NCBI GenBank assembly: GCA_005882895.1
Contig: VBBD01000025.1
Location: 1 to 32,414 of the forward strand
Origin: Candidatus Bathyarchaeota archaeon
Lineage (GTDB): Archaea > Thermoproteota > Bathyarchaeia > 40CM-2-53-6
Reading direction: 5' to 3'
Length of the DNA stretch: 32,414 bases
Positions 7,374-29,825 of the stretch are shown piece after piece. Both the position numbers and the translations under genes were made by a program. The stretch's first letter is position 1; every line of letters starts with the position of its first letter. Below the pieces are notes generated by a model, which was given only the letters and a program-made list of their open reading frames with translations, ran no database searches and was not told the DNA's origin.

Positions 7374-10300
7374 CTAGGCGAAATCTCCCACCAAGAGCTT
7401 TGTCTGCGTCCTGTCTTCCTCAGCTGGTCTGAACGTCTCGTCCAATTCAACTTTGATCAGGTCAAGTCGCTGTCTGTAGTAATCACCGACACTGTACCGT
7501 TTGACCATATCAAAGGCAACTTGGAGATATTTCTCGACCCCTGCTTTGAATACGGTAGGTCCCAACTTGCCTCCGCATTTCACGCAGACTCCTTTCAAGG
7601 GTGCTCGGCGTGGTTTCCAATTGCACTTTGAGCACCGACATCTCTGCGACGTGAACGTTCGCAAGTTCCCTACCAAATCTCGTAGAATATGGGTTCCGAG
7701 GACTTTCCTAGCAACTTCTTCTCCTCTCACCGCCACGATCTTGTCCGCAAGATCGAGTTGCTCCTTGACTTTATCCAGCATCGTCGGTAGTTCCTTGTAC
7801 GCGCTAGTCAATCGCGCCCGGTCTAGATCTTCTGTTGGGTGTGTGAACCCAATGTTCCAGTTGCCCGACAAAGACTCCCGGGCGTTGTTCAGGGTCGGGA
7901 CAAGATCCTCGATCTCCTTGGGGCTCGCTCCGACTAGTGTTTTCTCGTAGAAAGCGATGGGGAAAGTGGTGACTGTTTCGATGTTGAACGCTTGCCGTGC
8001 GACTTCGGTCGCGTTTAGTAATGGAGCGAGCAACAGCGGGGCGTCCATCAAACCCCCAATCCTATCTGGGAGGTATTCTCTAGAGAAGTTCAATAGTACA
8101 TCGAGCAATAGCGATACGGAGTCTTCGTCTCCATCGCAGTCTCGCCGTTTTGCAGCGTGGTATAACGGGTGGGCATAACACACGCTCGCTTTGGTGAATC
8201 CGACGATTCTTGCCACTGCGCCGACGGATGTATGAGGCGATAACCCGACGACCAGATGCCCGATTAGGTCTTCCTTTTTCGATGCCTTGTAGAGCTTGTC
8301 CATTCCGTAGTACGAATTGAGCAGGTCGTCTAGGAACCTGGTTACTTTCAACAGGTACTCGCCGCAAGCTTCCGAGACGACAAGGTCCTGTATCTCCAGA
8401 GCGCACAACTGTCTCGGGTCAGAGAGCTCGCGCCCATCCATGTCCTGCGTGTACCCTATCTCGCGGGCTTTCTCCAGGCTCAGCCCGATTTCTCCTGGTC
8501 TGAACTGGGTTAGCACCGCGTTCGACGCGTCAAACCGGAGGGTTCCATCTTTGAACACGGAGACATCTGATTTTGCACGTAACAATGCCTTCTCCACAGG
8601 CTCGGGCATTCGGGTTTTGTTGATCAAACCTTTCACTCCTTTCACCGATCCTTCGATTTTTCCCAGTCTCAACCTCCCAACTGCCTCGTCCAGCATTTCG
8701 ACCAGGTTTACGTTGACGCTCCGATAGGCGACGAGGGAACCGTTGCAAGTGGAAGACGAATCATGCGATGTTTGGCCGCACTCGGGACAGTTCGTACTCA
8801 TCTTCGTCTCTCGTCCGCAGACTGGACACTTGAGTTTCGATTCCCAGCGACCGCATTGTTGACATGATCGATCCACCAGGTCCAATGTCACTACGGATTT
8901 CCTCGATGCCTCTATCAAGTCACGGCGAGGGCCTCCGGCTTGGCCCGTTGGAAATAGCCCGTGGACCCGTGGGGTCATGATCCTCTCCTTGGCCTTTTCC
9001 GGGCGGCCCATGCGTGCGCCGACAAAGATGGGCGCCTTGTTCTTTATTGGAAATCCTGCCAGCAAGCTCAGCGCTTCAAGAGAGCTTGCTCCCTTGACCT
9101 GAGTTGCTGGGGCTTCGAGGTTCAAAATCGTCCGAAGAACCAGTGCATCATCGTCTCGAAGCTGGATGGCACCCGCCACCATCTTGTGCGGCATTCGAGC
9201 CTGTTCCAGAATGTCCTTCAACTTCTCATCGTAGGGCAGAACGCAGGAATCGTCAAGGTAGTGGATGAGTTTCTCGCGGAGATAGTATACGTCTTGGATC
9301 GTCACGAGGCTCCAGAAGTGGGTGTATGCTGGATGCAGAGGAATTCCGAGGCTCTGGGATAATCCAATCGCCTCACGGGCTCGCGGTTTGACAGCGAACG
9401 GGTTGTAAGCGAATTCCTTCAATCGCTCTGCTGAGATATTCAGCAATTGCTGTGCTTTGTTTCTGTTTTCCGGTTCGTGGAGCTTCTCCTCCAGCAACTG
9501 CGCCCACCACGACTCGACAAACCCCGACGGGACTAGCGCTCGATTATTCTCGAGAAACTCCCCATATCCCACCATCAAGTCGCCTAGGAATAGTATCTTC
9601 TGAATCTTGTCCCGCAGTGCTTTGGCTTCTTGAGGCGAGTCTATCCTCATTACTGAGCCATCGATGAGCTTCACGACAGGAGGCTCGATGCTATCGACCG
9701 CATTGACGATCCCTGCCTTCCCTGGCCTTTCCAGTCTCATCTGGACCCCAACTGCGAGAAAGCCGCCGAGAATCTCCATGGTGGCTGGGTGGACGCCAAC
9801 TGATGCCATGCCAGTGTTTCGCGAGCGGCCGTATCGTATTCTGAAACCTCCAGCTGCTCCCGGGAAGGCGAATATTGGTCGTCCGCCGACAACGTCCTCC
9901 ATGAACATGAACTCTTTCGCCTCTTCTCCCTCTGATGACGAGGTCTTCATCATAGCCAGCCATCCCCAGCCCTCCAGTCCTAGCTTCTCAACGATCTTCA
10001 GAACCTTGGTTGATCGTCCGAGCAGTCCGTCATTTACTACTCGCAGTGCCCCGCCTCGGACCCGGTTTGTCTCAATGCGCATCAGATTCCGGTTGACCGA
10101 TACCTCGACGGGGTCTGTCTCCACACCGTTCGGCTCAACGGTTAGACGCATGATCGCGTCTTTGAGGACGCTGTCCGGGTTCCGGTATTGAAACCGGGCG
10201 ATCGATCGCTCGTAGAGGCGTAGCTCTTCAACGAATCTCATCGCTTCCTGTTCCGACGCGTGATACGGGGGAATATTCAGTTGCCGACGGACGTAATCGG

Positions 10301-10826
10301 CGACGATCATTGTCAAACCCATCTCTGTCCCACCGGCCGACCGCATCGGGCCGGCGAAGTATACGGCTAGGTGCTTTGATCCATCCACGTTTGTTCGGAT
10401 CTTGACGTCGTGGATTCCTTGGATCGGCGCTACTGTCACCGCCTCATCCAAAACTGCTAGCGCCGTACGGATTGCTTGTTCCGCCGCCTCCTCAGCCTCA
10501 AGGCTCCCGAAATGGCCCAGAACAATGTCCTCGCTTATTTTCAGCGCTGTCTCTTCGCGCGAGATTAGTTTACTCAGTTCTCGGATTCTGGCCGCGACCC
10601 CGAGTGGTCCGACGGATTTCTCGACGCGCTCAGCAAGATCATAGGTCGTTTGTGATTCGACTTTCCATGAAGGGTCGAGTCCTTTCGACCGGGCCTCCGA
10701 GGCTATCGCGTACTGCCGGTTGTATTCTTCCTCTATTCTCTTCGCATAAACATGGTTGGGCCGATTCTCTAGAACTTGCACAGCGAGACTTCGACTACCG
10801 GCTACCGTAAAAGGATTAATTGTCAA
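7374..10826 (-). CDS. polC: DNA polymerase II (family D) large subunit DP2
   Basis: 1150 residues, the normal intein-free length for archaeal DP2, the catalytic polymerase subunit of the replicative D-family enzyme. The N-terminal YAKRIEEEYNRQYAIASEARSKG and the block VYFAGPMRSAGGTEMGLTMIVADYVR (about residues 153-178) are family hallmarks. The catalytic two-barrel motif DCDGDED is at 896-902, with Asp898 and Asp900 as likely metal ligands. Zinc clusters start at Cys655 (CQQCG... CPVCG... CPECG) and Cys1063 (CRCSKC... CVKCG). The TTG start is the only usual start codon after the upstream stop. The DP1 exonuclease subunit is not in this window. Divergent from the ParB-like gene. Confidence 0.97.
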   Translation of the reverse strand: MTINPFTVAGSRSLAVQVLENRPNHVYAKRIEEEYNRQYAIASEARSKGLDPSWKVESQTTYDLAERVEKSVGPLGVAARIRELSKLISREETALKISEDIVLGHFGSLEAEEAAEQAIRTALAVLDEAVTVAPIQGIHDVKIRTNVDGSKHLAVYFAGPMRSAGGTEMGLTMIVADYVRRQLNIPPYHASEQEAMRFVEELRLYERSIARFQYRNPDSVLKDAIMRLTVEPNGVETDPVEVSVNRNLMRIETNRVRGGALRVVNDGLLGRSTKVLKIVEKLGLEGWGWLAMMKTSSSEGEEAKEFMFMEDVVGGRPIFAFPGAAGGFRIRYGRSRNTGMASVGVHPATMEILGGFLAVGVQMRLERPGKAGIVNAVDSIEPPVVKLIDGSVMRIDSPQEAKALRDKIQKILFLGDLMVGYGEFLENNRALVPSGFVESWWAQLLEEKLHEPENRNKAQQLLNISAERLKEFAYNPFAVKPRAREAIGLSQSLGIPLHPAYTHFWSLVTIQDVYYLREKLIHYLDDSCVLPYDEKLKDILEQARMPHKMVAGAIQLRDDDALVLRTILNLEAPATQVKGASSLEALSLLAGFPIKNKAPIFVGARMGRPEKAKERIMTPRVHGLFPTGQAGGPRRDLIEASRKSVVTLDLVDRSCQQCGRWESKLKCPVCGRETKMSTNCPECGQTSHDSSSTCNGSLVAYRSVNVNLVEMLDEAVGRLRLGKIEGSVKGVKGLINKTRMPEPVEKALLRAKSDVSVFKDGTLRFDASNAVLTQFRPGEIGLSLEKAREIGYTQDMDGRELSDPRQLCALEIQDLVVSEACGEYLLKVTRFLDDLLNSYYGMDKLYKASKKEDLIGHLVVGLSPHTSVGAVARIVGFTKASVCYAHPLYHAAKRRDCDGDEDSVSLLLDVLLNFSREYLPDRIGGLMDAPLLLAPLLNATEVARQAFNIETVTTFPIAFYEKTLVGASPKEIEDLVPTLNNARESLSGNWNIGFTHPTEDLDRARLTSAYKELPTMLDKVKEQLDLADKIVAVRGEEVARKVLGTHILRDLVGNLRTFTSQRCRCSKCNWKPRRAPLKGVCVKCGGKLGPTVFKAGVEKYLQVAFDMVKRYSVGDYYRQRLDLIKVELDETFRPAEEDRTQTKLLVGDFA

Positions 10827-25332: not shown

Positions 25333-25446
25333 GCGGGAGTTGCCAAGCCAGGTCAAAGAGACCCTTGGAGAATGGGTCGTGGAAGCGCAGGCCTGAGGCG
25401 CCTGTCCCGTAGGGGTTCGTGGGTTCGAATCCCACCTCCCGCACCA
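25333..25446 (+). tRNA. tRNA-Leu(GAG) with D-arm intron
   Basis: Acceptor arms GCGGGAG/CTCCCGC with discriminator A and an encoded CCA. Long variable arm CCC-GTA-GGGG, T arm GTGGG-TTCGAAT-CCCAC. Anticodon arm CAGGC-CTGAGGC-GCCTG gives anticodon GAG (Leu). The D arm GCC...GGC is interrupted: the genome reads TCAAAG, 26 extra bases, then GCGCAGG. Removing them leaves 85 bases, normal for class II tRNA-Leu. It is transcribed away from the uL15 operon. Confidence 0.95.
25359..25384 (+). other. 26-nt non-canonical intron in tRNA-Leu D stem
   Basis: The intron carries a perfect GACCC/GGGTC hairpin starting one base after the 5' junction (AG|A). The 3' bulge would be AA|G. The central helix TCAA/GTGG makes three of four pairs, so the BHB is relaxed. 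The mature sequence restores the GCC/GGC D stem. Confidence 0.8.
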
Positions 25447-28215: not shown

Positions 28216-28374
28216 GCTGGTTCTAAACCTCAACACGCTTTGTCCAAAGAATCGGTATTGCTGGCCACACTTTGAGCATACAACTTCATTTTCCTGATCA
28301 GGACTAACCTCGACCGTAATCTCGTCTCCACAATTGCAGACGAAGGTAACCTTGTTTGCGCTCAAGCTTGTCAA
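28195..28374 (-). CDS. Small zinc-ribbon protein downstream of cbf5
   Basis: 59 residues from TTG 28374. Cysteines CNCG and CSKCG, 19 residues apart, can bind one zinc; the second half FFGQSVLRFRTSSENTGH is basic and aromatic. The chosen TTG overlaps the cbf5 stop as TTGA, the same coupling seen in the secY operon; a longer frame from 28416 would overlap cbf5 by 46 bases. Genetic coupling suggests a role near Cbf5 or RNA metabolism, which is inference. Confidence 0.65.
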   Translation of the reverse strand: MTSLSANKVTFVCNCGDEITVEVSPDQENEVVCSKCGQQYRFFGQSVLRFRTSSENTGH

Positions 28375-29431
28375 TTGAACTGGGTTACCACGGAACGACG
28401 ATGCTTCGGTTTCCACAGCTTGGGATAGGTGTCAGTCGGCATGATCACCCTAACCGTCTTAGCGGCGAGCCCGCGCTCGTCCTTCATCATCTGTTCGGTT
28501 CCGATGAGCGCTCTTGATAATGCGACGAGTTCTCCTTTGAGCGTAAAAAGCGCGATCGCGGTCTTGGGGCGTATTCCCTCGCTTAGCTTCACTATCCCAG
28601 GAACAGCAAGGTCAGCACCGTGACATATTGAACTGACAGCGGAGTCGCGAATGTAGATTCGCGGAACATACTCGAATGCGTCCTCCATCGGTCTAACGAT
28701 TTGTCGGAACATCCCTTCTCTCTCTTCTGGGGAGGCCTGAGAGAGTTTGAGTATATCGTAGAGAGAGTGTATGTCCCCTTCAGTGAAGGATCCGGATCTT
28801 GTTCTGCGGAGTTCTCGCATGTGAGCGCCTACTTCGAGAACTTCCCCGACGTCGTAAACTAGTTTCCGGATGTAGGTTCCTGCTTGACAGGCGACGCGGA
28901 ATAGAACCTGTCTTCCATCAATTTCCACATCGTCGATGGAGTAGATTGTTCTTTTCCGGACTTCCCTCTTGACCGCGGCTCTTACTGGGGGTTTCTGGAA
29001 TATGTCGCCGACAAATTCTTCCAGTACGCCGCGGAGTTTGGTCTGGTCGACGTCGCCGTGCATTGTCATGATGCAGACGTACTCTTTCCCAGTGAGGAGG
29101 AATGCCTGGATCGTCTTGGTAGCGTCTTCTAGTGCTAGTGGAAGAACGCCGGTGACCATTGGATTACTCCGGCCCTAATTGGGACCTCTAGAGTTCCACC
29201 GTGGCCAGCGTGGTTCAACCGAAGGAGACGTTTGACCCATGCGACGACTTCGTGGCTTGATGGGCCTGAGGGCTTATCCAGGTTGATCAGACCGAATCGG
29301 ATGTGCTGTTCAATCGTCCTCTTCTCTGGCGGACAGCCTAAGGCCGGGTCTGTTTCCTCGTCGAGCTTGATGAGCAATTTCTGTGACTTGTTCCAGGGAG
29401 CCTGTTGTGACAACCGATCTTTCTCCACCAC
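28371..29431 (-). CDS. cbf5: tRNA/rRNA pseudouridine synthase Cbf5, interrupted by a 23-nt intron
   Basis: Catalytic subunit of archaeal H/ACA RNPs. Exon 1 (29431-29188, GTG start) ends with HAGHGGTL; exon 2 (29164-28371) begins PMVTGVLPLALEDATK. Unspliced, exon 1 runs into VPIRAG... and exon 2 has an in-frame TAG before it. Removing 29165-29187 gives GGTLDPMVTGVLP with the catalytic Asp82, exactly the family motif, in a protein of 345 residues. Other signatures are INLDKPSGPSSHEVVAWVK, CQAGTYIRKLVYDVG and MRELRRTRSG; the C-terminal PUA domain covers about 255-335. cbf5 pre-mRNA introns cut by the tRNA endonuclease are known in some Crenarchaeota. Confidence 0.95.
29165..29187 (-). other. 23-nt BHB intron in cbf5 mRNA
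   Basis: On the transcript: outer helix TGGA/TCCA, central helix CTCT/GGAG (extendable by A-T), bulges AG|A and TA|A cut after the second base, and intron hairpin GG-CCC/GGG-CC with loop AATTA and one bulged T. Both cuts are canonical BHB positions and together regenerate a GAT codon for the catalytic Asp. Confidence 0.88.
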
Positions 29432-29528: not shown

Positions 29529-29825
29529 CTAGGCTGCTACGCTGATCTCTTTGATTGTGACTATCTCTTTTAGGTAGTTCGTCTTCTTCGCCTTTTCCGC
29601 TACTTTGGCAACGTCCTCGTCAGCTGCGCCCTTCTTGATCTCGATGGTCTCCGGGGTCGGTTCAACGTGTTTGACGTTGGTTCGACGGCGACGGACTCCG
29701 TTCACTTTCTTGGGTCCAGTGATTAGAACAAAGTTCTTGTCGATAACATCGACTATGACGCATTTGCGGCCGGCCTCTCTTCCGTTGAGTTTGACGCAGA
29801 CTCGTCCGACTTCTATCGTTGGCAC
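29529..29825 (-). CDS. rpl14e: Large ribosomal subunit protein eL14
   Basis: 98 residues, GTG start. The family core is VGRVCVKLNGREAGRKCVIVDVIDKNFVLITGPK, a KOW-like beta barrel, followed by the basic VNGVRRRRTNVKHVEPTPE. In many archaea eL14 and cbf5 follow cmk directly; here they stand apart, 7 kb from the secY-cmk block, but still adjacent to each other. The gap to cbf5 is 97 bases. Confidence 0.94.
   Translation of the reverse strand: MPTIEVGRVCVKLNGREAGRKCVIVDVIDKNFVLITGPKKVNGVRRRRTNVKHVEPTPETIEIKKGAADEDVAKVAEKAKKTNYLKEIVTIKEISVAA

Follow-up and report, generated by a model that had tools for sequence, protein, structure and literature searches.

Earlier work on the intron of the archaeal cbf5 pre-mRNA is said to include Watanabe 2002 and Yoshinari 2006. 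In the tRNAs and rRNAs of the archaea, the exons separated by bulge-helix-bulge (BHB) introns are ligated by RtcB. These introns are, like that of cbf5, bordered by a BHB and cleaved by the tRNA-splicing endonuclease EndA, according to the portions of the sources available here (PMC7714728, PMC6379350). The cbf5 intron differs from them in that its host is a protein-coding message, and in being too short to hold a homing-endonuclease frame. In Haloferax volcanii, the BHB of the HVO_1309 5' UTR is processed by the action of EndA on an mRNA, as proposed for cbf5, although this BHB is found in an untranslated leader, whereas the cbf5 intron lies inside the reading frame (PMC7714728, available portion).

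The available text of the 2009 survey defines the cbf5 intron as lying between the first and second bases of the catalytic Asp codon, and reports lengths of 16-44 bp in the Desulfurococcales and Sulfolobales only, with 0 bp for the Thermoproteales, Cenarchaeum, Nitrosopumilus, and Korarchaeum, placing the gain in the ancestor of the Desulfurococcales and Sulfolobales (Yokobori 2009, PMC2738675). Splicing was shown by cDNA in Aeropyrum and Sulfolobus (PMC2738675, same text), and the accessible parts of three papers (PMC2738675, PMC7714728, PMC4810243) describe the archaeal cbf5 intron as a crenarchaeal matter. No report of a cbf5 intron outside the Crenarchaeota was found in the partial literature consulted, which excluded subscription journals and bioRxiv.

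The window analysed here is a stretch of 32,414 nucleotides from a Candidatus Bathyarchaeota archaeon (contig VBBD01000025.1), a lineage of soil Bathyarchaeia according to the GTDB scan, and it contains a cbf5 gene interrupted by 23 nt. In comparison with the available description of the intron of the Desulfurococcales and Sulfolobales (PMC2738675), the gene and phase are the same, the length falls within 16-44 bp, both are found in lineages with two EndA genes, and the BHB is often relaxed; the host is outside the listed orders, and the intron is known here from the sequence, and there from cDNA. The insert matches the known cbf5 pre-mRNA intron in site, phase, size, and structure, and so belongs to an already known kind; it is almost certainly a cbf5 BHB intron, spliced by an alpha-plus-beta EndA and RtcB, the same as the crenarchaeal one. 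What is new, on the comparative reading presented below, is the range, which covers most of the sampled Bathyarchaeia, the Caldarchaeales, many other families of the Thermoproteota, and 13 of 115 Asgard genomes.

The interrupted cbf5 gene in the window and its relatives

The gene is found on the minus strand, downstream from rpl14e (29529-29825, same strand), and its two reading frames join at the GGTLDP motif. The last bases of exon 1 are ...GGT GGA ACT CTA G, up to 29188, and exon 2 starts with AT CCA ATG GTC, from 29164 on:

28371..29164, minus strand: cbf5 exon 2, from base 2 of the Asp codon to the stop (ORF list; NCBIfam Cbf5 profile TIGR00425, positions 71-322, E 4.7e-91)
29165..29187, minus strand: BHB intron, 23 nt (sequence; same-site insert in 49/56 class-level loci, own included; covariation)
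29188..29413, minus strand: cbf5 exon 1, 75 codons and base 1 of the Asp codon (TIGR00425, positions 3-69, E 4.6e-25); probable TTG start, taken from the exon-1 ends of relatives, with the upstream GTG at 29431 possible

The single residue missing from both profile matches is the catalytic Asp, which is restored by the excision of the 23 nt (29165-29187), giving GGTLDPMVTGVLP, so that the intron is located between the first and second bases of this codon. The letters alone leave a one-base uncertainty in the splice site, given that A29187 and A29164 are the same letter, and the limits were set at 29165-29187 because the BHB geometry and the published convention choose them. The first-pass annotation, which had described two frames meeting at GGTLDP and the removal of 23 nt to restore the Asp, was right to the base, in agreement with NCBIfam. 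Its numbering of this residue as Asp82 holds only for the GTG start at 29431. The frames of the relatives show (M/V/L)SQ.APW, and the TTG at 29413 is probably the start, which would make the catalytic residue Asp76.

No Rfam family was matched within the window at the gathering cut-off, as expected for a 23-nt intron. Group I and group II introns were considered and rejected, given that 23 nt is too short for a ribozyme core and no Rfam family was found in the window. The only tRNA gene reported by ARAGORN within the window is a tRNA-Leu (GAG), at 25365-25442.

A class-level search for the TruB_N family in 61 genomes (the own genome plus 60 relatives) gave a match in 56, and all 56 loci were read. 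An insert of 17-34 nt is present at the same base in 49 of these loci, including the window's own, with Cbf5 maintained on both sides, while the other seven have no intron, which indicates that it is dispensable in some lineages. Within the window's genus, the insert (22-23 nt) is found in all 18 genomes, again counting the own. The best GTDB-scan matches, among the best 80 of at least 576 relatives, were the soil archaea records Bathyarchaeota BA_21 and Crenarchaeota 13_1_40CM_3_52_17, each 92% identical in exon 2.

These loci bear on the possibility of an assembly error or a decaying pseudogene, which might be suspected in a draft genome that is 86.6% complete. The same insert site in 18/18 genomes of the genus refutes this for practical purposes, exon 2 is 50-59% identical to that of the window across 17 other loci of the class, and PF01509 is matched only once in the own genome, all of which leaves an error or pseudogene scarcely credible. 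The claim that a BHB intron interrupts cbf5 at its catalytic motif is, by contrast, strongly supported by its position, the 18 genomes of the genus, and the covariation described below.

Pairing across the junction and the splicing machinery

The RNA of the junction (43 nt) folds at -15.6 kcal/mol (z -2.2), with 9 of 200 shuffles as good, so that the fold energy alone would be only modest evidence for a BHB. The elements of this fold are as follows:

29195..29198, minus strand: outer helix, exon-1 strand UGGA (fold)
29190..29193, minus strand: central helix, 5' (exon) strand CUCU (fold; 98.9% of cells paired in 132 distinct junctions)
29187..29189, minus strand: 5' bulge AG|A (fold; AGA in 111/132 distinct junctions)
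29182..29186, minus strand: inner helix, 5' strand GGUCC (fold; inner positions 1-3 covary)
29171..29175, minus strand: inner helix, 3' strand GGGCC (fold; inner positions 1-3 covary)
29167..29170, minus strand: central helix, 3' (intron) strand GGAG (fold; paired as its partner)
29164..29166, minus strand: 3' bulge UA|A (only AA unpaired in the fold; TAA in 18/132 and AAA in 59/132 junctions)
29160..29163, minus strand: outer helix, exon-2 strand UCCA (fold; faces UGGA 29195-29198)

The inner helix closes a 6-nt loop. The Asp codon dictates the last A of the 3' bulge, which therefore counts as no evidence. Facing this bulge is one additional A (29194), paired with U29166 in the minimum-energy fold, which makes the outer side a relaxed BHB. 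The helices named in the first-pass annotation (CUCU/GGAG, UGGA/UCCA, and an intron hairpin) are all present in the fold.

The same annotation had proposed a covariance comparison with the cbf5 of relatives, and this bore the pairing out. A total of 280 loci were collected, of which 148 had an insert by pattern, representing 132 distinct junctions. Ten loci gave no junction by pattern, including L057 and L058, which are EndA loci. Reading by hand identified L198, L208, L210, and L254 (from the same genome as L117) as intron-bearing, and L170, L258, and L280 as intronless, and all seven are outside the 132, which do include two probable contaminants (L252 and L253). Excision restores an Asp codon in 132/132 distinct junctions (GAT in 100, GAC in 32). 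The central helix has standard pairs in 98.9% of the cells, compared with 39-64% in controls with the partner displaced by 1-3 bases, and the first three inner positions are paired in 94% of the cells, compared with 16-50% when displaced; six junctions have only three of the four central pairs. Regularity is lowest on the outer side, where all four pairs of the fixed register form in 60/132 junctions.

Compensatory change is seen in central pair 2, at the third base of the Thr codon, which is C-G in 85 junctions, T-A in 37, A-T in eight, and T-G in two, that is, a standard pair in 132/132, whereas 2000 permutations averaged 93.2 and never exceeded 103. The 132 sequences are related, and the counts are thus not independent events, although the types of change recur across distant groups. 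The preceding Leu codon, which provides the A of the bulge, is CTA in 108/132 intron-bearing junctions versus 12/112 intronless ones, an excess which indicates that codon choice in the gene yields to the splice signal. It is these comparative data, rather than the fold, that are decisive against chance, and fold and covariation together place a BHB or relaxed BHB at the exon-intron borders.

The own genome encodes two EndA genes (G000:C14 and C18) and an RtcB (E 3.2e-170). The first EndA is closest to the solved chains 3p1z_B, 3ajv_B, 2cv8_A, and 2zyz_B, which are presumably mostly crenarchaeal EndA, and it retains the Tyr, His, and Lys that we take to be the catalytic set, while the second is without the His. 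The host would thus have a hetero-oligomeric (alpha plus beta) EndA, with two genes the products of which are predicted to assemble.

In the proposed process, the exon-intron junctions, for which both the pairing and the frame are observed, would pair into the (relaxed) BHB, the two-gene endonuclease would cut both bulges, each between its second and third bases, and RtcB would then ligate the exons, as expected from established knowledge of these enzymes. Splicing would, in this case, take place in the host organism itself, and active Cbf5 would be made only after the exons are joined.

The type of EndA was considered as a predictor of the intron in 67 genomes (32 intron-bearing, 22 intronless Thermoproteota, 10 intronless Asgard, and three euryarchaeal). 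At least two EndA matches were recovered in 30 of the 32 intron-bearing genomes, with one match in G024 and G374, and with G064 counted as having two even though its second match is below the Pfam cut-off. The same was true of all 22 intronless Thermoproteota and eight of the 10 intronless Asgard genomes, whereas one euryarchaeal genome had a single match and the other two had both matches in one frame. Given that intronless genomes also have two EndA genes, this predictor was rejected; the two-gene type may permit the intron, but it does not predict it.

Intron length and in-frame stop codons

The cbf5 introns found here range from 13 to 76 nt in length, in all three residues modulo 3. The intron of the window, which the first-pass annotation had called very short, is certainly short at 23 nt, although ordinary for cbf5, whether by the survey or by the present range. 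Introns of 13 nt (L187, L194, L204, L208) and 14 nt (L196, L205, L209, L210) are below the published minimum of 16 bp, with very little of the inner hairpin remaining, and most of them belong to the section of the tree in which Pelearchaeum (L107) is placed. The 76-nt intron of L206 is far over the published maximum of 44 bp.

In 28 of 131 distinct intron sequences (L007, L011, L262, and L269, for example), the length is a multiple of three (3n), and all 28 have a stop in the exon-1 frame, compared with 41 of the 103 others (p 6e-10, with kinship ignored). In the other two frames of the same 28 introns, a stop is present in seven cases each, and an average of 29% contain a stop after their interiors are shuffled. 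As 19 of the 28 came via tables that flag stops, a possible bias, a stop-blind subset was used, in which stops were found in nine of nine 3n introns and 17 of 56 others (p 1e-4, again with kinship ignored). No stop-free, in-frame insert was found at the site among the intact-frame rows, as judged by eye from the row lengths; the longer spans of L105 and three haloarchaeal rows are due to an insert upstream of an intact GTLDP. A similar stop pattern is found in the tiny introns of a ciliate. This rule suggests selection against a full-length enzyme with an insert in the active-site loop, produced from the unspliced message, and it raises the functional question of whether the translation of unspliced messages matters in a cell that has no nucleus. 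It may also be speculated that the intron is an expression gate, with the unspliced message being a deliberate dead end. The idea of a negative regulator was also voiced by the authors of the 2009 survey, in its available text (PMC2738675).

The lengths and stops also bear on a reading without splicing, in which the ribosome would frameshift at the 23 nt or jump over them, or each half would yield a protein of its own. There is an ATG (29159) near the start of exon 2, which forms an open frame alone, and the available text of the 2009 paper states that the first cases were read by others as frameshifts (PMC2738675). Lengths of 13-76 nt in all residues modulo 3 mean that no fixed shift would work, however, the catalytic Asp is in neither half, the exon-intron pairs covary, and the 3n inserts found always have stops, which makes the absence of splicing highly improbable in comparison with a spliced BHB intron. 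If the counts given below hold, many archaeal genomes probably have cbf5 wrongly annotated, either as two genes or as a frameshift.

Taxonomic range and age of the intron

The first-pass annotation had located the known cases in the cbf5 of some Crenarchaeota, in agreement with the Desulfurococcales and Sulfolobales of the survey's available text (PMC2738675), and had proposed that a lineage bearing DNA polymerase D would extend this range. The large subunit DP2 of this polymerase is encoded in the window (7377-10826, 1150 aa, three Pfam domains), the lineage is Bathyarchaeia, and the range has proved far wider than supposed.

In the phylum sample, 300 genomes were drawn evenly, and 287 matched the junction profile. 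Split matches, or single matches with an internal stop, were counted by eye as intron-bearing, which gave 30 of 45 Bathyarchaeia and 110 of 242 others, that is, 140/287, partly from the match patterns. When 20 single-match genomes were searched again, 19 had no insert and one (G318) was cut at the end of a contig. Of 42 genomes searched again for reading, 41 had been chosen as probable carriers, and the junction is an intron in 41; the exception, L170, is intronless, and is the one that had not been chosen in this way. Carriers include Candidatus Pelearchaeum (L107) of the Caldarchaeales, two Thermofilaceae-like genomes (L198 and L254, the latter from a record named Thermofilaceae), and L205, which we take to be Caldiarchaeum subterraneum. 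The named Methanomethylicales records (L109, L111, L127) are intronless, as are, presumably, the ammonia oxidizers, Thermoproteaceae, Pyrodictiaceae, and Ignicoccus, in agreement with the 2009 table.

In the Asgard phylum, 119 genomes were searched, 115 matched, and 13 of these carry the insert, with all 13 junctions read and two suspected contaminants excluded. The carriers include the named Jordarchaeia and Freyarchaeota records (L072, L075, L081, L082; four of four), LC30 (L136), and the group formed by L243, L245, and L247, while the named Loki-, Heimdall-, and Wukongarchaeota records (L105, L134, L120) are intronless. In two other Asgard bins (L252 in G411, L253 in G442), a second, intron-bearing cbf5 is found on a short contig beside an intact one, which probably represents contamination of the bin.

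In the Methanosarcina phylum, 57 of 60 genomes matched, and the split pattern was found in none (three rows read, the others by table), nor was there an insert in the euryarchaeal GTDB-scan records with the junction read, among the matches listed. Three loci with a haloarchaeal-type Cbf5 (L312 in G520, L313 in G514, L314 in G526) have a protein insert of ~11-12 residues, located upstream of the active-site motif, which is not an intron.

A gain in the ancestor of the Desulfurococcales and Sulfolobales does not account for the carriers found here. If these counts hold, the intron is present in approximately half of the Thermoproteota sampled and in several Asgard lineages, and the published date of its gain looks too recent. 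The counts would also provide a natural experiment, with many losses at one site, for asking what maintains an intron within a core gene of a prokaryote. The history of the intron was reconstructed on a free Cbf5 tree (142 rows) and on one (140 rows, leaving out L252 and L130) in which the Euryarchaeota, Asgard, and Thermoproteota were each held together. The presence of the intron changes at least 21 times on the former and 19 times on the latter, in a reconstruction that represents one gene with weak deep support. Under parsimony, weighting each gain at 1.5 losses or more favours an intron already present in the TACK+Asgard ancestor.

The intron of the window may share its descent with the cbf5 intron of the crenarchaea. 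As a tentative joint reading, the intron may be older than the radiation of the Thermoproteota, and perhaps than the TACK-Asgard split, with repeated losses thereafter; it would be kept by selection as a gate tying Cbf5 to the tRNA-splicing enzymes, with the in-frame introns armed with stops against a poisoned enzyme made from the unspliced message. If this is true, few conserved intron positions known from protein genes would be as old as that of cbf5.

Many gains at a hot spot, with the exon GGNACCCTAG already half a BHB and the shared position due to convergence rather than descent, would be a doubtful alternative. The two-rate model, for example, has approximately equal rates of gain and loss, and under its four settings the probability of the intron in the TACK+Asgard ancestor is low (0.005-0.38), although the same models give 0.69-0.97 for the ancestor of the Thermoproteota. 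When only losses are allowed, the fit (lnL -68.9) is poorer than that of the two-rate model (-64.8), although the root is then also obliged to carry the intron, and better than when only gains are allowed (-73.5). The Asgard carriers are found in separate places in the tree, whereas the intronless Bathyarchaeia are mostly nested among carriers. The exact phase is shared by 132/132 distinct junctions, and the CTA found in only 12/112 intronless genes makes the exon half-site look like the result of the intron, and not its cause.

The horizontal transfer of intron-bearing cbf5 genes between lineages is unlikely. The pair L072/L075 and the pair L082/L241 occupy two places in the tree, both with introns, even though L072, L075, and L082 are named Jordarchaeia and L241 is a close relative, which may reflect either transfer or tree error, and some deep groups do not match the taxonomy. 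The weak deep support means that misplacement may explain the remainder, however, and the genes cluster by lineage both within the Bathyarchaeia and within the group of L107, L201, L205, and L271.
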